Part shown: piece after piece, positions 33,198 through 42,142 of the stretch
How the letters are laid out: the number at the start of each line of letters is the position of its first letter
Position numbering within the stretch: the stretch's first letter is position 1
NCBI RefSeq assembly: GCF_014764385.1
Contig: NZ_CP061714.1
Span: 1,674,001 to 1,738,000 of the forward strand
From: Luteimonas sp. MC1825
Lineage (GTDB): Bacteria > Pseudomonadota > Gammaproteobacteria > Xanthomonadales > Xanthomonadaceae
Length of the DNA: 64,000 bases
Direction of reading: 5' to 3'
Program-made: the position numbers and the translations under genes
The notes under the pieces: generated by a model
What the model was told of the DNA's origin: nothing
Seen by the model: only the letters and a program-made list of their open reading frames with translations
The model's database searches: none

Positions 33198-35048
33198 TCA
33201 GGACGCCGTGGCGCGCCGCCTTTCGCCCGTGTGCAGCGACACGGGCTCGTCCATGCGCGCCGATGGCGGATGGGCATCGGCCACCGGCAGCGCGGCAGGC
33301 CCGGGGATCCCGTACAGGCATACGCGGTTGCGGCCGCCGCGCTTGGCGCGATAGAGCATGCGGTCGGCGTGTGTCAGCAGTCGCGTCAGGTCGTACCCGG
33401 ACAGCGTGGTGGTGCTGATGCCGAAGCTCGCGGTGACGGCGAAGGCATACCCGCTTCCACGCGTGTCGATGGCGGCGATGCAGCGGCGGCACTCTTCGGC
33501 GACACGCACCGCCTCGGCACCGTCCGCGCCAACCAGGAGCAGCGCGAATTCCTCGCCTCCGAGGCGCCCGAACCAGTCGACGTCGCGGCGCGCCGTGGCG
33601 CAGGCCTCCACCACGCGCTGCAGCACCCAGTCGCCCACGCCATGCCCGTAGTGGTCGTTGATCGACTTGAACCGGTCGAGGTCGAACATCACCAGCGCGG
33701 CGTCCTCGCCCATCCGCGCGCTGCGCGCCAGCGTGGCCGCGGCGCGGTCGTTGAAGTGGTGGCGGTTGCTGATGCCGGTCAGTGCGTCGGTTTCAGCCAG
33801 GTGCCGCAGCGAGACCTGCACGCGCTTGGTCTTGTAGGCCCAGAACGCGATCGAGGCCAGCAACAAGAGCAGCATCAGCACCAGCAGGCGGGAATTCTGC
33901 GCCGACTGTTCCTGCACGCGCTGCTGCAGCTGCAGCACTTCGTTCTGGCGGTTGAGCAGCTCGATCTGCTGGGTCTGCTGAAACGTTTCGTGGCTGACGA
34001 TCTGGTAGGCCAGCTCGCGCGCCTTCACTTCGTCGAGCTGCGCCTTGTCGGCCTCGGCGTACCGGCGGTAGTGGGCCAGCGCCTGCACGGGATCGTTGCG
34101 CGCCTCGGCCACGCGATAGCGGGTCAGGTGCGCCGCGACCAGCGACCTGGTGAAATCGCCGCCCCCGCGCTCGATGGTGGCCAGTGCATGGGCATCTGCC
34201 CCGGCCGGGTCGCCGGCGGCCAGCTTGTATTCCGCCAGCAGCGCGTGGAACTCGCCGATCAGCGGCGGGTAGCCGGTGCGCTCGACCTCGGGCAGGTGGC
34301 GCTCGAGGATCGCGACCGCGCGCGGCCGGTTGCCCTCGCCGTCCCACTTGCGCGCGAGCATGGCCCGCACCAGGTTGGCCACCACCGCCTCGCGCTGGGC
34401 CTCGCAGACGTCGACCAGCGCGGTGAACTCGCGGTCCTCGGCCGGTGACTGCTTCAGCTCCTGCATCGCCTGGAGACGGGTCTGGCCGGCAAAGCACCGG
34501 GCGCGGGGCGCTTCGGTCGTGGACAACACGCGCTCGGCGTACTCGCGCCCGATCCGGTACTGCCCGGCCTGGTTGTGGATGACCGCCGCCACGCCGAACA
34601 CGTGCTCGCGGTTGGCGTCGTCGATGTCGTCGCGGGTGAACGGCAATACCTTGCCGAGCATGCGCAGGCCGCCCGCGAAGTCGCGGGTGATCGCGCGTGC
34701 ATTGACCACCAGCGCGCCGGCGCGGACCTTCATGTTGGCACCCTGCGCACGCTCGAACAGCGCGGTGGCCGCGGCGATGCCCTCCTCGTAGCGACCGCCA
34801 AGCACCAGCGCGTACGCGTTCAGGTAGTCAAGGCGCTCGCCTTGCCCGGCCGTGAGGTCGTCGGGCGTGGTGGCGTTGAGTTCGGCGAGAAGTTCGCGGA
34901 ACGTGGCCGGATCGGCACTGCGCAGCGTGTCGGCCTGTTCGAGGCGGGCGTCGAACGTCGCCGCCGGGCCGGCATTTTCCGCGCCCACCACGACCGCCCC
35001 CGGCAGGAGGCTCACCAACAGGCAGACCATCAGCCACTGCTTGCGCAT
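33198..35048 (-). CDS. TPR-containing membrane diguanylate cyclase
   Basis: Synthesises c-di-GMP. 616 aa: signal peptide (1-23), a helical periplasmic repeat region of TPR character (about 30-345), coiled coil (355-385), one transmembrane helix (388-404), and a cytoplasmic GGDEF domain with active site GGEEF at 497-501. The inhibitory site RxxD is intact (R488-D491, RDVD, five residues before GGEEF), so product inhibition is expected. There is no EAL domain. It begins only 27 bases after the putative borosin precursor gene, so it may share its transcript. Confidence 0.93.
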   Translation of the reverse strand: MRKQWLMVCLLVSLLPGAVVVGAENAGPAATFDARLEQADTLRSADPATFRELLAELNATTPDDLTAGQGERLDYLNAYALVLGGRYEEGIAAATALFERAQGANMKVRAGALVVNARAITRDFAGGLRMLGKVLPFTRDDIDDANREHVFGVAAVIHNQAGQYRIGREYAERVLSTTEAPRARCFAGQTRLQAMQELKQSPAEDREFTALVDVCEAQREAVVANLVRAMLARKWDGEGNRPRAVAILERHLPEVERTGYPPLIGEFHALLAEYKLAAGDPAGADAHALATIERGGGDFTRSLVAAHLTRYRVAEARNDPVQALAHYRRYAEADKAQLDEVKARELAYQIVSHETFQQTQQIELLNRQNEVLQLQQRVQEQSAQNSRLLVLMLLLLLASIAFWAYKTKRVQVSLRHLAETDALTGISNRHHFNDRAAATLARSARMGEDAALVMFDLDRFKSINDHYGHGVGDWVLQRVVEACATARRDVDWFGRLGGEEFALLLVGADGAEAVRVAEECRRCIAAIDTRGSGYAFAVTASFGISTTTLSGYDLTRLLTHADRMLYRAKRGGRNRVCLYGIPGPAALPVADAHPPSARMDEPVSLHTGERRRATAS

Positions 35049-35075: not shown

Positions 35076-35354
35076 TCAGCTTTCGGGCGACTCGTCCGGC
35101 GGGTCGCGCTTGTCGTCGTCGTCCGGACGATCCCGCTGCGGGGGTGCCGGCGTGTCTTCCTGGGGTGTCCAGAGCTGCATCATCACGTGCTCGGGAGCGC
35201 CGAGCAGGACAGCCAGGCCGGGACCGTCGCCGGACAGCAGCGCGGCACGCTGGGCCGCATCGAGGCCGGAGGAGGCGTCAGCCGCAAGCCCGGTGGGGCA
35301 CATGTGCGCCGGGCTCGCGCCCAGCGCCTCGAGGATACGGATCGCATTCGACAT
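35076..35354 (-). CDS. Putative split-borosin precursor peptide (SonA-like)
   Basis: 92 aa. Residues 1-52 are helical and match the layout of the borosin binding domain of SonA from Shewanella: a helix with ILEALG, then a GLDAAQRAALLSGDGPGLAVLLG segment resembling GLTDEQ...TGD...L..LSG of SonA (from memory). The expected core follows: HVMMQLWTP (56-64), then an unusual Pro/Asp-rich tail 65-92. It starts 11 bases after the methyltransferase stop, with a strong AGGGGA ribosome site seven bases before ATG. Substrate role is inferred from position, length and the domain pattern; the core is not recognisable as any known product. Confidence 0.8.
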   Translation of the reverse strand: MSNAIRILEALGASPAHMCPTGLAADASSGLDAAQRAALLSGDGPGLAVLLGAPEHVMMQLWTPQEDTPAPPQRDRPDDDDKRDPPDESPES

Positions 35355-35361
35355 CGGTGGG

Positions 35362-35367
35362 TCCCCT
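35362..35367 (-). promoter_or_regulatory. Strong ribosome binding site of the putative precursor gene
   Basis: AGGGGA, overlapping the methyltransferase stop codon, seven bases before the ATG of the 92-residue gene. Its strength compared with the weak or absent sites of the overlapping upstream genes fits a substrate made in excess of its enzyme. Confidence 0.6.
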
Positions 35368-36184
35368 AATCAGTGGTCTGGATGGTGGTGAAACCTGGCT
35401 CGGCGGCTTCGATCGCGGCGATCTCCTCCAGCATCGCGCGGTCCCGCTGCAGCGCCGCACAAGGCGGCAGCACCAGCGTCGTCTGTGGATGCAACCCCGC
35501 TCCCCCGAGGCCTGACAGCCGCATCCCCTCGATGCGCGGCCGGGCCGTGGCGAGCGTAGCAGCTTCGTACAGCGTCACGTGGTGGTCCGCCGGGTAGTCC
35601 TGGAGCAGGCGCTGCAGCAGCAGGCGCTGCCACGCGCCCATGGAGAGTTGACGTCCTCCCGGCCCGGAAACGGCCATCCCCACCTGCCACAGCACCAGCA
35701 GCGCGCCGCGGTCCACCTGGCGGCGGTACTGCAGGAACTGCCCCGCTTCGAAATGCTGGCAGCCGGTGGCGCCCGGATCGAGGCCGAGGTCGGCGTACAG
35801 GCAATCCTCGGCGGAGATGCCCGGCTCCATGTGCGCCGTGTAGCCCTCGGCGCGGGCCTGGGCGATGGCCTGGTGCGGTGCCACCGCGAACACCCCGGGA
35901 TGCCCATAGAACGCGGCGCAGACGCGCTGGCCGGCGCGCACCTCGCACAGCATCAGCCCGACCATGTCGGCGTAGGCCTGGCGCCTGCTGCGGCCACCGC
36001 CGTAACACGGCTGCAGGCTGCGCACGTCGCGGTGCATGCCCTGCAGCCAGAGTTCCACCAGCGGATCCGACACCGCCATGAACACCACATCCGCACCCTC
36101 GATGGTGGCGCGCGCACGTGCGCCGATGTGGGCGCCGAGCATCATGCCGATGCCGACGCACGCCAGGCTTCCCGCTTTCGACAT
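35366..36184 (-). CDS. Borosin-type peptide backbone alpha-N-methyltransferase (tetrapyrrole methylase fold)
   Basis: 272 aa, the size of the split borosin methyltransferases, without the clasp and core fused in fungal enzymes. From memory it aligns with OphMA: KAGSL at the N-terminus, YGGGRSRRQAY, the EVRAGQ segment, FYGHPGVF, EGYTAHMEPGISAEDCLYADL, DPGATGC, and LLVLWQVG. The catalytic set Y66, R72, Y76, Y98 of OphMA corresponds to Y61, R67, Y71, Y93 with identical spacing. Family SAM site is GHPGVF. It would N-methylate backbone amides of the downstream precursor. ATG at 36184 overlaps the GNAT gene stop by one base. Confidence 0.9.
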   Translation of the reverse strand: MSKAGSLACVGIGMMLGAHIGARARATIEGADVVFMAVSDPLVELWLQGMHRDVRSLQPCYGGGRSRRQAYADMVGLMLCEVRAGQRVCAAFYGHPGVFAVAPHQAIAQARAEGYTAHMEPGISAEDCLYADLGLDPGATGCQHFEAGQFLQYRRQVDRGALLVLWQVGMAVSGPGGRQLSMGAWQRLLLQRLLQDYPADHHVTLYEAATLATARPRIEGMRLSGLGGAGLHPQTTLVLPPCAALQRDRAMLEEIAAIEAAEPGFTTIQTTD

Positions 36185-36729
36185 CACCCTGCCTCCTGCG
36201 TCGCGCGTGCCCAGTGCGCGCGCGTCAGCCGCCAGCGGCATTCCCCGGCCAGGCCGTCCGCCGCGGGTTGGAACCCGGCGCGCCTCATCAGCCCTGCCGC
36301 CGCGGCGTGGTCGCGCACATGGCGCGTCCACAAGGCCAGCAACGGAGACGCGGTGAATGCCACGTCGACCAGGGCCGCGATGCCCGCGCTGGCGACGCCG
36401 GCTCCCTGTGCCCCGGGCGGCAGCAGCACGCCGACTTCGGCAGCGTCGCCGGCGCCGGCGTGGATCTGCAGCGCCATCAGGCCAGCGGGTGGACCGGCAA
36501 CGGTGGCGGCAACACGCCATGGCAGCAGCCAATACGCGGCACGCGGGGGCCGCGCGGCGAGTTGCGCCATGACGCGCGCGAATGCCGTGCGCCCAGCCTC
36601 GGGCGCGAGGGCCGGGCCGACATGACGCATCGTGTCCGGGTCGCCATACAGCGCGCAGTACAGCGCTTCATCGCGCGCCTCGAGGACGCGCAGCGGGGTC
36701 CCCGCGAGCACGGGTGCGGGTATCCGCAC
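36184..36729 (-). CDS. GNAT family acetyltransferase
   Basis: 181 aa. The Rim-type GNAT pattern is visible: an N-terminal strand, the central AEVGVLLPPGAQGAGVASAGIAALVDVAF with the acetyl-CoA loop, and a C-terminal LMRRAGFQPA. Start is a GTG at 36729 directly abutting the HD gene stop (TGAGTG). Upstream-overlapping position in the borosin operon suggests acetylation of the peptide or self-protection, but a housekeeping substrate cannot be excluded. Confidence 0.8.
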   Translation of the reverse strand: MRIPAPVLAGTPLRVLEARDEALYCALYGDPDTMRHVGPALAPEAGRTAFARVMAQLAARPPRAAYWLLPWRVAATVAGPPAGLMALQIHAGAGDAAEVGVLLPPGAQGAGVASAGIAALVDVAFTASPLLALWTRHVRDHAAAAGLMRRAGFQPAADGLAGECRWRLTRAHWARATQEAG

Positions 36730-37350
36730 TCAGCGCCACCCGGCCAGCACGCGACGCAGGTTCGCGCGCGCCGGCGCATCCAGGCGCGCATGGAACCAGT
36801 CGCTGAGGTAGATACGCTCGCTGGCGAGCAGCGCCTCGAGGAATTTCCTGCGCCCGCGGCGGAACAGCCATGCGGGCACGCGCCCCCGGTATTCCCTGGC
36901 GATCCCTTGGTCATAGGCGTCGAATTCGGCGGCAGCGGCGCCCAGGATCGCCATGTCGCAATCCAGGAAATGCATGCTGTCGCCGGCGTCGGGCCCGTCA
37001 CCGAGATCGGCCCTGGCGATGTGTCCGTGGCGTGCCGTGAGTTCGACCAGGCGCGCGACGCGGACCGTGTCGATGCCCGCGTCCGGCAGCCAGCGCGCGA
37101 TGGCGTCCCCGGCCAGGGCCGCCGAGCGCGACTCGTTGTCGCGGCGACCGGCGACGTAGATCGCGTCGTGGTACAGGACGGCCAGCCAGACCTCGCGCGG
37201 GCGATGCCAGCCGGGGCCGTCGTCCACCTCTTCGAATCGCGCGAGCACCGCTTCGACATGGTCGAAGCCGTGATACGCCCGCGGCGGGGTGGCGTACGCG
37301 GCGCGAAGCGCCGCGAGCTGTCCCGCCGGCAGCGGCACGCGCTCATGCAT
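36730..37350 (-). CDS. HD superfamily phosphohydrolase (COG4339-like)
   Basis: 206 aa. The pattern is that of the COG4339 family: YHGFDHVEAVLARF (H27, H31), VLYHDAIY (H61-D62) and the RDNESRSA motif (D71 to S74), which together bind a divalent metal. Substrate is unknown. The ATG at 37350 lies eight bases inside the 3' end of the spermidine-synthase-like gene; a longer in-frame start would sit deep in that gene. Confidence 0.85.
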   Translation of the reverse strand: MHERVPLPAGQLAALRAAYATPPRAYHGFDHVEAVLARFEEVDDGPGWHRPREVWLAVLYHDAIYVAGRRDNESRSAALAGDAIARWLPDAGIDTVRVARLVELTARHGHIARADLGDGPDAGDSMHFLDCDMAILGAAAAEFDAYDQGIAREYRGRVPAWLFRRGRRKFLEALLASERIYLSDWFHARLDAPARANLRRVLAGWR

Positions 37351-38188
37351 CGACCTGCACCCCGACGCCACGCAGGCGCAGGGCACGCGCGACGCGCTCG
37401 AGCGAAGGCGACAGCGCCGCATGCGCCGCGGCGGGCAGTGCCGCGCGCACGCGGGCGAGGTCCGCCGCGTCGCCTGCCGGCGCCACGCCGGCCCAGGCGA
37501 ACACGACCTGGTTGCTCATGCGCGGCTCCTTCACCACCAGCACGTTGCCGGCGCCGAAGCTCCGTCTCAGCCGCTCGAGGTGCGGCGCGGTGTCGACGCA
37601 GAACAGGTTGGTGGCGAGCACGCCACCGGGGCGCAATGCGTTCCGGCAGGCGTCGTGGAAGGCAGGCGTGGACAGCGCCACCGGAATGCCGCCGGCGTCG
37701 TAGCCATCCACCAGCAGCAGGTCGTAGCGGCCGGGCCGGGCCGCGACGAAGCGCGCGCCGTCATCCAGCACGACCTCCAGGCGGGCGTCGTCATCCGGCA
37801 CCTGGAACTCCCGGCGCAGGGCGATCACGCCGGGATGGTTCTCAACGACCTCCAGCCGCGCGCCCGGCAGGTGCCGGTGGATGAATTTCGCCTGGGAACC
37901 ACCACCCAGCCCGACCATGCAGATCGTGCGCGGGCGTGGTTGCCACAACAGGGCCGCAAGCATCGTGCGGGTGTAATCGATCAGCAACTGGTCGGGCGCA
38001 TCCCCGAGCATCCGGCTCTGCGTCTGGCCACGCGTGAACTGCAGCGCGGTGTACGCGCCGACGCGCCGCAGGCGGGCCGGGCGCAGCGGCAGCCCGGTCG
38101 GGTCGAGCGGACGGACGCGGCGGCGCAGACCGGCAAGCCAGGTCACAATCCGCCGCCCGATTCGGCCGTCATCCAACTGCACGCACAT
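37343..38188 (-). CDS. Spermidine synthase-like methyltransferase-fold protein
   Basis: 281 aa with the Rossmann signature MVGLGGGSQAKF, an acidic ribose-binding Glu (VVENHPGVI), the DDGARF segment and LLVDGYDAGG, matching the spermidine synthase-like/fused transferase family. The N-terminal beta region is degenerate relative to real SpeE, and the Tyr/Asp residues that bind the polyamine are not evident, so aminopropyl transfer is doubtful. It begins the five-gene overlapping operon. Confidence 0.82.
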   Translation of the reverse strand: MCVQLDDGRIGRRIVTWLAGLRRRVRPLDPTGLPLRPARLRRVGAYTALQFTRGQTQSRMLGDAPDQLLIDYTRTMLAALLWQPRPRTICMVGLGGGSQAKFIHRHLPGARLEVVENHPGVIALRREFQVPDDDARLEVVLDDGARFVAARPGRYDLLLVDGYDAGGIPVALSTPAFHDACRNALRPGGVLATNLFCVDTAPHLERLRRSFGAGNVLVVKEPRMSNQVVFAWAGVAPAGDAADLARVRAALPAAAHAALSPSLERVARALRLRGVGVQVDA

Positions 38189-38661: not shown

Positions 38662-38901
38662 TCAGCCCCCGCAGCCGCCGCAACAGGTCGAAGGCTGCTG
38701 CTCCACTGCACTCGCTGGCGTGTCCAGGCCGGTCGAGCTCAACAGGGCCGCCACCTCCGCGGCCCCCAGCGTGGTCGCCACGCGCAGCGGTGAACCGCTG
38801 GCGTGCAGGTCGGCCAGGGCCGCGGGATCGGCGGCGCGCAGCGCCTCGTTCACGGCGGCCACGTTGGCCACCCGGCCATTCAGGGCGATTTCGTATTCCA
38901 T
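38662..38901 (-). CDS. Small protein with Cys/Gly tail (HMA-like fold)
   Basis: 79 aa. The beta-alpha-beta-beta-alpha pattern (MEYEIALNGRVANVAAVNEAL, then PLRVATTLGAAEVAALLSSTGL) suggests a ferredoxin/heavy-metal-associated-like fold, but the usual CxxC loop is absent. Instead the chain ends STCCGGCGG with C73, C74 and C77, a possible metal or sulfur-carrying site on a flexible tail. Start ATG at 38901. It lies beside the zinc-finger gene on the same strand. I do not recognise a named family. Confidence 0.7.
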   Translation of the reverse strand: MEYEIALNGRVANVAAVNEALRAADPAALADLHASGSPLRVATTLGAAEVAALLSSTGLDTPASAVEQQPSTCCGGCGG

Positions 38902-39037
38902 GGTCTCATCCTGTCGCAGGCGCCCATCGCGCCGTACCGCCATCGTCGGCCGCGCAGCGGTCGCCGGCCATGATCCGGGTCAAGCGCGATGCACGGCGCT
39001 TGAGGCCAGTGGCACGTGTCTTGCATGCTTGGACGCG

Positions 39038-42000
39038 ATGCCGCGACCAACCACCTTCCGGACCACCTTGGCCAGGCGCCTCGCCGCGATGGTGTTGCTG
39101 CTGGTGGCAGCGCCGGCGCTGGCGGCCGACCTCGCGGCACCGCAGCGGCTGGAAGCCTTCGGGCCTGATGAAGGGCTGCCGCAGTCGACGGTGAACGCGC
39201 TCGCCGGCGACGACCAGGGCTTCCTGTGGGTCGCCACCCAGGACGGCCTTGCCCGCTTCGATGGCCACCGCTTCCAGTCCTGGCGGCGCAAGCGCCGGGA
39301 CGACCAGGGCCTTGCCAGCAGCAGCATCGACGCGCTGGCATTCGAGCCTGGCACCACAAGGCTCTGGCTCGGCACCGACGACACCGGCGTCGAGATCATC
39401 CACCTGCCGACCTGGGAGCGCGTCCGCTTCACCCGCGGCGACGGGCTGTCCAACGACCGCATCACATCGATCCTGGTGGACCCCGATGGCGGCGCATGGA
39501 TCGGGACGGCCGCTGGACTCGACCACGTCGGCATTGCACCGCGCCACGTGCGCAAGCTGGGGGGCGGCGAGATCGCCGGCGTGGCAGCACTGACGCAGGG
39601 CGGCGCACTCGCCCTCGGCCGCGACTGCCGCCTCTGGCACGCCACGCCCGCGACGCTGACCGCCCTGCCCCACCGCGGCGGCAGCGGCAGCGCCTGCATC
39701 GCGCTGCAGTCGGGTCCGGAAGGTGCGTGGATCGCCAGTGAACGGGGTGGCCTGGCGCTGGTGGATGTCCGCGACGGGCGGCGGCTGCGCAGTTACACCG
39801 TCGGCGAACTGCAACCCGGGGCCAGCGTGATCACGGCCCTGTTGCGCAGGCGCGACGGCAGCGTGCTGGTCGGCTTCGGCAACGGCGCCGTCGCGCAACT
39901 GGACGCGGCCGGGCCGAGGCCCCTGCAACTCGACCGCGACCTCGGCAATCCGGTGGTGACGCTCCATGAGAGCGCGACCGATGCGTTGTGGATCGGCACG
40001 TACACCTCGGGGCTGTACTTCGCGCGCCCGCTGTCGCACGTGATCCGCTTCGGGCGCTCCGACGCCGCGCAGATGCAGGGCTGGCCCAGCGTCAGCCTGC
40101 GCGCGCTCTGGGGCGAGGGCGGGCACCTGCTGGTCGGTACCGACAACGGCCTCATGCAACAGCGCGCGGCCGGCGGCGAATGGATGCAGGTGCCGGGTTT
40201 CGAAGGCCGGACGGTGCGCGTGATCGGTCGCGCGATCGATGGCGGCTGGTGGATCGGCACCCACGACGGCCTGTGGCACTGGCCCGGCGGCGGCGCGCCA
40301 CGGCGCATCCCCGGCCTGCCCGATCCGCGCATCGACGCCATGCTGGTCGAAGGCGGCACGGTCTGGGTCGCGACCCGCGGCGGCCTGGCCCGCGTCAGCA
40401 ATGGCGAGGTCGTCGAGGATCCCGCACTCGCACCGCTCGCCGGCCGCCAGGTCACCGCACTGCTGCGCGACGACGATCGCCTGTGGATCGCGACCAATAC
40501 CGGCGGGCTCTGGCAGCTCGACGCGGGCGCGGTGGCCGCGCCGTCGCGGCACGCGGGCCTGCACCACTCGCTGTGGTCGCTGGCCGCCGACGACGACGCG
40601 CTGTGGGTGGGCAGCTACAGCCACGGCCTGTACCGGATCGACCGCGGCAGCGGCGCGATCCGCAACTACAGCGACCGCGACGGACTGGCCAACAACGTGG
40701 TGTACGCGATCCTGCGCGACGCCGCCGGACGCCTGTGGCTGAGCACCAACAACGGGCTGTCCGTGGTCGCCCCCGGCGACGGGTCCATCCAGGTGCTGGG
40801 GCCGCGCGACGGCCTGCAGAACCGCGAGTACAACAGCGGCTCGGGGTTCCGCGACCGCGGCGGCCTGCTGTATTTCGGCGGCACGCGCGGCCTGGACGTG
40901 CTCGATCCGGACAGGCTGCCCGCGCAGAGCCCCTCGGCCCGCGCGGTGCTGACCACGCTGCGCATCTCGCCTTCGGGCGCCGGCGGCGACGAGGCCGCGT
41001 CGGTGGAATCGGACATCGTGTATGCCGACCGCCTGTCGCTGGCGTGGCGCGACCGCATGTTCTCCATCGCCATGACGTCGATCGACTTCGGCGCCGCGGA
41101 AGTGGCACAGCTGCGCTACCGCATGCGCGGCCTGCATGACGCTTGGGTGTATCCACGCGCGCCACGCGCCGAGTTCGCGGTCAGCAGCCTGCCACCCGGC
41201 GACTACGTGCTCGAGGTCGAGGCCGCTGGCCGCGACGGCCGCTATGGCGACACACGGCGCCTGGAGCTGCGCATGGCGCCGCCGTGGTGGCGGCATGACC
41301 TGGCCTATGCCGGCTACGCGCTCGCGGTGCTCGCGCTGTTCGCCCTGCTGGTGCGCCGCGCGGGCTCGGCGGTGCGTCGCGAGCGCCGCCAGGTCGAGCT
41401 CCTGGAGCGCACCGTGGCGGAGCGTACCGCGCAGCTGCAGGAGGCCAACCTGCGGCTGAGCACCACCAACGCCCAGCTCGACATCGCCACCCGTCGCGAC
41501 CCGCTCACGCGCATCTCCAACCGCCGCGACCTGCAGGACTGGCTGGGCCGCGAGGCCGGCGCGCTGCGCACCGCCATCGAACAGGCCGGCGGCGAGCCGG
41601 AGCGGCTGGTGTTCTTCATGATCGACATCGACGACTTCAAGCGGGTCAACGACCGCCACGGCCACCAGGCCGGCGACGAGGTGCTGGTGCACTTCGCCGA
41701 CCGGCTCCGGCTGCTGAGCCGCGACCACGACCTGCTGGTGCGCTGGGGCGGCGAGGAGTTCCTGCTGATCACCCGCTTCACCCGCGTCGCCGATGCCGCG
41801 CAGCTTGCCGAGCGCATCCGCGAGGCGATCGCCGGGCAACCGATCCGGGTCGCACCGGGGCTGGTGCTGCCGCTCACCTGCTCGATCGGGTTCGCGCCGT
41901 GGCCGTTCGCGCTGGAATGCCCGGATGTCGGCGACTGGGAAGCCTGCGTGGGCCTGGCCGACCGTTGCCTGTATGCCGCCAAGCGTGGCACCAAGGATGC

Positions 42001-42142
42001 CTGGGTCGGCGTGGTGCCGGGGCCCCGCCCCGACCGCGCCGGCGTGCAGGCACTGCTGGCGGGCGCTTCGCCCGGAGAGGTCGGCGAGGAGTGCGCGCAG
42101 GTGCTGCATTCGGGCACGGTGGCACCGGGTTTCGCGCGCTGA
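39038..42142 (+). CDS. Two-component-regulator-propeller / GGDEF diguanylate cyclase
   Basis: 1034 aa. Signal peptide (1-30), then two seven-bladed propeller domains built of repeats of the type GxLWVATxxGLxRxD (clear at FLWVATQDGLARFD, RLWLGTDDTG, ALWIGTYTSGLY, RLWLSTNNGLS), a Y_Y_Y domain (about 660-745), one transmembrane helix (about 756-773), coiled coil (775-820), and GGDEF with GGEEF at 904-908. The inhibitory RxxD is present (RDHD, 895-898). Periplasmic ligand sensing coupled to c-di-GMP synthesis is inferred; the ligand is unknown. The domain order differs from hybrid histidine kinases only in the output domain. Confidence 0.93.
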   Translation: MPRPTTFRTTLARRLAAMVLLLVAAPALAADLAAPQRLEAFGPDEGLPQSTVNALAGDDQGFLWVATQDGLARFDGHRFQSWRRKRRDDQGLASSSIDALAFEPGTTRLWLGTDDTGVEIIHLPTWERVRFTRGDGLSNDRITSILVDPDGGAWIGTAAGLDHVGIAPRHVRKLGGGEIAGVAALTQGGALALGRDCRLWHATPATLTALPHRGGSGSACIALQSGPEGAWIASERGGLALVDVRDGRRLRSYTVGELQPGASVITALLRRRDGSVLVGFGNGAVAQLDAAGPRPLQLDRDLGNPVVTLHESATDALWIGTYTSGLYFARPLSHVIRFGRSDAAQMQGWPSVSLRALWGEGGHLLVGTDNGLMQQRAAGGEWMQVPGFEGRTVRVIGRAIDGGWWIGTHDGLWHWPGGGAPRRIPGLPDPRIDAMLVEGGTVWVATRGGLARVSNGEVVEDPALAPLAGRQVTALLRDDDRLWIATNTGGLWQLDAGAVAAPSRHAGLHHSLWSLAADDDALWVGSYSHGLYRIDRGSGAIRNYSDRDGLANNVVYAILRDAAGRLWLSTNNGLSVVAPGDGSIQVLGPRDGLQNREYNSGSGFRDRGGLLYFGGTRGLDVLDPDRLPAQSPSARAVLTTLRISPSGAGGDEAASVESDIVYADRLSLAWRDRMFSIAMTSIDFGAAEVAQLRYRMRGLHDAWVYPRAPRAEFAVSSLPPGDYVLEVEAAGRDGRYGDTRRLELRMAPPWWRHDLAYAGYALAVLALFALLVRRAGSAVRRERRQVELLERTVAERTAQLQEANLRLSTTNAQLDIATRRDPLTRISNRRDLQDWLGREAGALRTAIEQAGGEPERLVFFMIDIDDFKRVNDRHGHQAGDEVLVHFADRLRLLSRDHDLLVRWGGEEFLLITRFTRVADAAQLAERIREAIAGQPIRVAPGLVLPLTCSIGFAPWPFALECPDVGDWEACVGLADRCLYAAKRGTKDAWVGVVPGPRPDRAGVQALLAGASPGEVGEECAQVLHSGTVAPGFAR

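Follow-up and report, generated by a model that had tools for sequence, protein, structure and literature searches.

A split borosin locus in Luteimonas with a precursor gene beside a putative TPR-GGDEF receptor gene

What might a bacterium do with a peptide that is predicted to be backbone-methylated and whose gene lies between that of its predicted methyltransferase and that of a GGDEF-domain protein? This question is raised by a locus in a 64,000-nucleotide stretch of Luteimonas sp. MC1825 DNA (the window), which is contained in a single-contig genome of 2.9 Mb. On the minus strand, the genes run in the order GNAT acetyltransferase (36184..36729; Pfam Acetyltransf_3, E 1.7e-13), borosin methyltransferase, precursor, and a 616-aa GGDEF-domain protein. 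The ATG of the methyltransferase overlaps the GNAT stop codon as TGATG, and 11 nt separate the methyltransferase and precursor genes. A first-pass annotation of this DNA had proposed an undescribed split borosin here, and both of its open reading frames are present as described, with 272 aa encoded from 36184 to 35366 and 92 aa from 35354 to 35076. The ribosome site claimed for the precursor is also present, with TTAGGGGACCCACCG before the ATG, although it is moderate and not strong as had been stated. That annotation overlooked the gene for the TPR-TM-GGDEF protein at 33198-35048, which may reveal the purpose of the peptide.

Beyond the GNAT gene, a minus-strand frame at 36730-37422 encodes a 230-aa protein that has no Pfam or NCBIfam match and resembles an HD-type hydrolase by eye. 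Its relatives occur within about 6 kb of the methyltransferase in 12 of 78 fetched family loci. The next frame (37343-38188, minus strand) is spermidine-synthase-like, with a Pfam match above the cut-off and NCBIfam equivalog matches below theirs.

A methyltransferase and precursor of the split borosin type

The methyltransferase gene (35366..36184, minus strand) encodes a predicted alpha-N-methyltransferase of the SonM/OphMA type with a tetrapyrrole-methylase fold (Pfam TP_methylase, E 2.3e-19). A phmmer search of the PDB gave 25 matches at E<=0.01, all of them borosin enzymes, with SonM first (E 2.3e-60 over residues 5-255) and then dbOphM, OphMA, and MroMA; the OphMA entries match at about 4e-40. 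Best matches to cobalamin or siroheme methylases, the outcome named in advance as contrary to the borosin assignment, did not occur. Such a reading is rejected on the basis of these PDB matches and of NCBIfam, where the only results at E<=1 were YabN at 28.9 bits, far below its cut-off of 525, and a chance-level match to YfiH (E 0.13). At E<=1e-10, 5,291 relatives were present among the 7,998 candidates scored, the closest found being 91% identical and from an unclassified Luteimonas.

The proposed catalytic residues Y61, R67, Y71, and Y93, to which the first-pass annotation assigned the same spacing as OphMA Y66, R72, Y76, and Y98, are found at the positions claimed for them, as is the LDAAQRAALLSGDGPGLAVLLG stretch. 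In the HMMER alignment, the first three fall on the catalytic residues Y58, R67, and Y71 of SonM, the loop between Y61 and R67 being three residues shorter than in SonM, and Y93 aligns with the tyrosine of YGHPG. The text describing SonM names Y58, R67, and Y71 as stabilising the deprotonated amide (PMC8429565). The enzyme is a discrete homolog of SonM and OphMA with no fused core, as is characteristic of type IV borosins.

The 92-aa precursor (35076..35354, minus strand) begins with a predicted borosin binding domain (residues 1-53, 35196..35354), which includes four predicted helices within residues 3-50. This is followed by the putative core VMMQLW (residues 57-62, 35169..35186), which was placed by alignment position and the listing of cores and whose methylation sites are likewise putative. 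An acidic, proline-rich C-terminal tail (residues 63-92, 35079..35168) completes the protein. A precursor HMM seeded with 18 ORFs located beside methyltransferases scores this protein at E 5.1e-25, the window sequence itself being among the seeds. When the family profile was compared with the PDB, all seven matches were to SonA (E 0.001-0.011), in agreement with the SonA-type assignment of the first-pass annotation, and a profile-profile comparison gave 96.6%. Both comparisons are consistent with a separate precursor carrying a borosin binding domain, the other characteristic of type IV. The single sequence does not retrieve SonA from the PDB up to E 10; its best match there is a transaminase (E 0.0033), which is taken as chance. 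SonA is the top Foldseek row for the AF2 model of the precursor, at a weak E of 2.6.

The possibility that the precursor is a gene fragment or a chance small ORF is rejected, since related proteins, which form a family, are encoded at the same place. A member of this family lies near the methyltransferase in 61 of 64 split loci from the same taxonomic family, a count that is partly by construction because the precursor model was seeded with ORFs beside methyltransferases. This recurrence, together with the 5,291 enzyme relatives, indicates that the two reading frames are real beyond chance. The VMMQLW core is divergent, as had been claimed, but it is still an instance of the family pattern (roughly GGRxxMxCxxxxPxxDE). 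The tail is net acidic in all 91 non-redundant type-A precursors examined. A double-glycine export signal before the core was considered and dropped because only 24 of the 91 have GG at the residues checked.

The SonM-type enzyme and the SonA-like precursor bear out the assignment as a split borosin, and from their sequences the two genes (35366-36184 and 35076-35354) almost certainly constitute one of a type IV-like form. The 92-aa protein is the predicted substrate of the 272-aa enzyme, by way of its N-terminal binding domain. The locus resembles SonM-SonA of Shewanella oneidensis MR-1, for which a separate methyltransferase and precursor, conserved catalytic residues, and a binding-domain leader are described (PMC8429565). 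Unlike SonA, the window precursor continues beyond the putative core with an acidic tail of 30 aa. Methyltransferases at E<=1e-20 were detected in 77 of 198 genomes sampled from the family, 15 of 398 from the phylum, and 9 of 369 from the class, and therefore the split borosin is not rare. A review likewise describes type IV clusters as widespread in bacteria (PMC11285071). The statements that the locus is undescribed and that split borosins are known in few bacteria are not supported, as this is a known and common kind.

The GGDEF gene that follows the precursor

The downstream gene (33198..35048, minus strand) encodes a putative receptor with a signal peptide, a TPR-like solenoid, a transmembrane helix, and a GGDEF domain. 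The GGDEF domain (residues 418-575, 33324..33797; Pfam E 7.4e-40) has GGEEF at residues 497-501, preceded at a distance of five residues by an RxxD motif. This intact GG[DE]EF motif predicts diguanylate cyclase activity. The signal peptide and transmembrane helix were judged by hydropathy and by eye, and the predicted topology therefore favours a periplasmic sensor formed by the solenoid (residues 28-316, 34101..34967). No TPR family in Pfam matches the window receptor itself, and TPR_12 matches 10 of 29 of its relatives. In the AF2 model (mean pLDDT 89), the solenoid is similar to structures of pheromone-bound Rap receptors, a match that may be generic because TPR solenoids look alike and that involves about 5-9% identity in structural alignments. 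The window includes a second GGDEF gene (38720-42142, plus strand), which is oppositely oriented and about 5 kb away from the methyltransferase gene, has about 960 frame residues ahead of its GGDEF domain, and is not accompanied by a borosin precursor.

To describe how often the precursor and receptor genes occur together, 80 of 82 family loci were examined, comprising 64 split loci and 16 fusions; the second row of G160 and the second row of G020 were omitted, their scores being equal to those of their sister rows. In 57 of the 64 split loci, the precursor gene immediately precedes a GGDEF gene, as it does in 55 of the 59 that have at least 3.5 kb of downstream sequence. For the 55 split loci that extend 4.5 kb in both directions, a same-strand GGDEF gene is downstream in 52 and upstream in six. 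Three of the unpaired loci (L097, L100, and L105) have less than 3.5 kb of downstream sequence, and three others (L098, L107, and L125) have no GGDEF gene despite room for one. At L057, the GGDEF gene is present and is preceded by a 78-aa ORF not called by the HMM.

Outside the family, pairing on the strand of the enzyme was observed for 8 of 15 loci in the phylum sample, or 9 when the divergent pair of L165 is counted. By eye, a small ORF precedes the GGDEF gene of L164 and that of L166 in this sample, and L170, L172, L173, and L174, which have distant methyltransferases, are unpaired. None of the six new loci in the class sample is paired. As a control, the 19 GGDEF loci of the window's own genome include two with a precursor upstream, and both are borosin loci.

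In total, 121 precursor-receptor pairs were collected from all loci (112 after removal of nine near-duplicates). The GG[DE]EF motif is intact in 120 of these, L171 being the one pair in which it was not detected. A hydrophobic segment precedes the GGDEF domain in 120 pairs, a hydrophobic N-terminus is present in 105, and the distance from the end of the precursor to the GGDEF domain is 1,224-1,411 nt.

Several loci depart from the simple arrangement. In L218-L221 (family f262), two or three GGDEF genes occur in a row, and by eye eight of the nine follow the gene of a 54-60-aa protein whose end is acidic. These proteins probably represent a short borosin precursor type below the HMM threshold; the short acidic-tailed ORFs of L217-L221 were judged to be precursors by eye and left out of the counts. 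In a Luteibacter locus (L006:5850-8108), seven tandem precursors whose cores share PQxxQ precede one TPR-GGDEF gene. An Alteromonadaceae locus (L013:4965-6750) has two tandem borosin methyltransferases ahead of one GGDEF gene.

Rearranged, receptor-picked, and fused loci

The order of the genes varies in ways that bear on which of them belong together, and through these changes the precursor keeps its position ahead of the receptor. At L010 the order is precursor, receptor, GNAT, and methyltransferase, and four regions (L079, L106, L108, and L212) have two or three precursor-receptor pairs with one methyltransferase in the region. Forty further regions were hand-picked, not drawn at random, for similarity to the window TPR-GGDEF protein among the matches listed; they were chosen by score and spread across genomes, and methyltransferase loci already fetched were excluded. 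A precursor is directly upstream of the receptor gene in 27 of these 40 regions. Seven of the 27 (L192, L199, L202, L205, L206, L208, and L214) have no methyltransferase in the region, L205 being near a contig end. Six genomes in which these seven pairs occur carry a methyltransferase elsewhere (G999, G1069, G1098, G962, G1053, and G1016), that of G962 being a fusion as judged from its 863-aa frame. The other 13 regions lack an HMM-called precursor; by eye, five of them have precursor-like short ORFs and eight have none. One of these eight, L213, is in G968, the sole genome without a methyltransferase among nine checked.

The second borosin locus of the window's own genome, which is outside the window, encodes a fusion of the TPR-TM-GGDEF protein with a methyltransferase (G000:C1:1746813-1749311), with a SonA-like precursor upstream at 1749348-1749560. 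The same fusion was recovered as L018:9813-12311, about 9 kb beyond the end of the window. Of the 16 fusions among the 80 family loci, 15 have a precursor upstream, and the remaining one, L124, begins close to the end of a contig. Fusion-type precursors have cores that strongly resemble one another, most of them ATNHxIKAYD or a similar sequence. The fusions form one group (99/85) in a tree of 89 methyltransferases. In their near relatives L223 and L171, the precursor, receptor, and methyltransferase are adjacent separate genes, which is the arrangement expected before fusion.

Window-type, fused, and Shewanella-type rows of this tree fall in one supported set of 81 (99/95), and the eight rows outside the set (L170, L172, L173, L174, and L182-L185) are unpaired. 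Within the set, L098, L180, and L181 are unpaired, L100 and L124 are near contig ends, and L013, L164, L166, L211, and L218-L220 have a GGDEF gene without an HMM-called precursor. As judged from gene arrangement, the evolutionarily kept unit is the precursor together with the TPR-TM-GGDEF gene, whereas the methyltransferase is in some cases located elsewhere in the genome or fused to the receptor. The pairing, the rearranged loci, the receptor-picked regions, and the fusions therefore point to the diguanylate cyclase as the evolutionary partner of the precursor.

Possible roles of the peptide

The occurrence of precursor and membrane-enzyme genes together in many bacteria suggests that the peptides may be signals read by the receptor. 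A functional link between precursor and receptor is very likely, and we lean towards the reading, drawn from sequence comparison, that the methylated peptide is the ligand of the neighbouring c-di-GMP receptor. After N-methylation in the cytoplasm, the core would be released from its leader and would reach the periplasm or the outside by some route. There it would bind its cognate receptor at the TPR sensor and alter c-di-GMP synthesis. A rap-phr cassette combines a TPR receptor with its own peptide encoded next door, and the present cassette might work similarly, except that its peptide would be methylated, its receptor would sit in the membrane, and its output would be c-di-GMP. Rap receptors are cytoplasmic and respond to unmodified peptides that have been imported. 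The similarity to Rap-Phr and other RRNPP systems is limited to about 5-9% identity, and the window solenoid differs in being predicted to be periplasmic and in being joined to a GGDEF domain. No exporter or protease was found among eight neighbouring proteins scanned with Pfam and NCBIfam. A C39 exporter was considered as a partner, but the sole match in the genome, a 369-aa frame about 0.7 Mb away, is uninformative.

Other explanations must account for the same pairing. If these genes were merely passive neighbours in an operon, without a functional link, their association could reflect gene order common to related genomes. This is very hard to credit, as pairing persists across several families, even where methyltransferase identity drops to about 43% and the order of genes is otherwise reshuffled. 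Furthermore, the precursor kept its place in front when receptor and methyltransferase became fused, and pairing among the 19 GGDEF loci of the window's own genome is confined to the two borosin loci. Alternatively, the borosin might be a conventional natural product that is secreted for an antimicrobial, metal-binding, or other role, and the diguanylate cyclase might regulate the pathway, timing production in response to some other cue. Many RiPP clusters do yield bioactive products, and 52 of the 64 family split loci have a GNAT relative on the same strand no more than 900 nt from the methyltransferase. However, the GGDEF gene follows the precursor and not the enzyme, methyltransferase-free pairs occur in seven of the 40 receptor-picked regions, and four regions each hold more than one pair, all of which make this account rather unlikely.

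A partial Mantel analysis of 90 pairs gave a partial r of 0.16 between core and TPR part, 0.13 between core and GGDEF domain, and 0.41 between binding domain and TPR part. Core-receptor co-evolution is not specific to the core in this analysis, and we count this result against the ligand model; the co-variation of the binding domain could reflect another contact or shared descent. The stronger co-variation of the TPR part with the binding domain than with the core is in keeping with a different proposal, in which the precursor protein itself, as opposed to a mature peptide, regulates the diguanylate cyclase as one of its subunits, the contact being tuned by methylation. No leader protease is known here, which also suits this proposal. 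In addition, the TPR part of RcbB from Vibrio vulnificus is described as repressing its own diguanylate cyclase until the protein partner RcbA de-represses it (PMC12282931). RcbB thereby provides a precedent for a TPR-controlled diguanylate cyclase, although its partner is a TPR protein and not a RiPP precursor, and the main text of that paper does not contain the term methyltransferase in a term search. Against a subunit role, the TPR part is predicted to be periplasmic from the N-terminus (105/121) and the segment before GGDEF (120/121), whereas the precursors, by eye and among those listed, begin with a binding-domain helix and have no signal sequence. We consider such a role quite improbable, and peptide ligand and receptor remain our preferred reading.

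Parts of this arrangement have precedents among borosins. The SonA-like loci L167-L169 have enzymes 44-46% identical to that of the window, and the precursor of L167 matches SonA (E 6.7e-26) and precedes a TPR-GGDEF gene. A term search of the main text of the SonM paper (PMC8429565) found neither GGDEF nor diguanylate. A GGDEF domain appears among the borosin architectures given in the legend to Figure 1 of Xu et al. 2024 (PMC11395268), and hence a GGDEF domain within a borosin architecture is already in print. The fusion in the window's own genome (G000:C1:1746813-1749311) likewise combines a GGDEF domain with a borosin enzyme; the window GGDEF gene differs in being separate and located behind the precursor. 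In the open-licence literature, we found a single report combining borosin with GGDEF, none combining it with diguanylate cyclase or with tetratricopeptide, and, among the papers listed, nothing on borosin signalling.

More broadly, it is conceivable, and proposed here tentatively, that the type IV split borosins of Pseudomonadota are pheromones, each with a periplasmic Rap-like TPR-diguanylate cyclase receptor. One methyltransferase would serve several dispersed pairs, and N-methylated RiPPs would control c-di-GMP, the signal that determines whether cells move or live in biofilms. A precursor and receptor that have stayed paired across families offer a direct and cheap test of function, as well as natural cognate pairs for engineering. 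If the proposal is true, these loci would represent a new class of peptide-to-second-messenger signalling, give bacterial borosins a function, and link RiPP chemistry to c-di-GMP.
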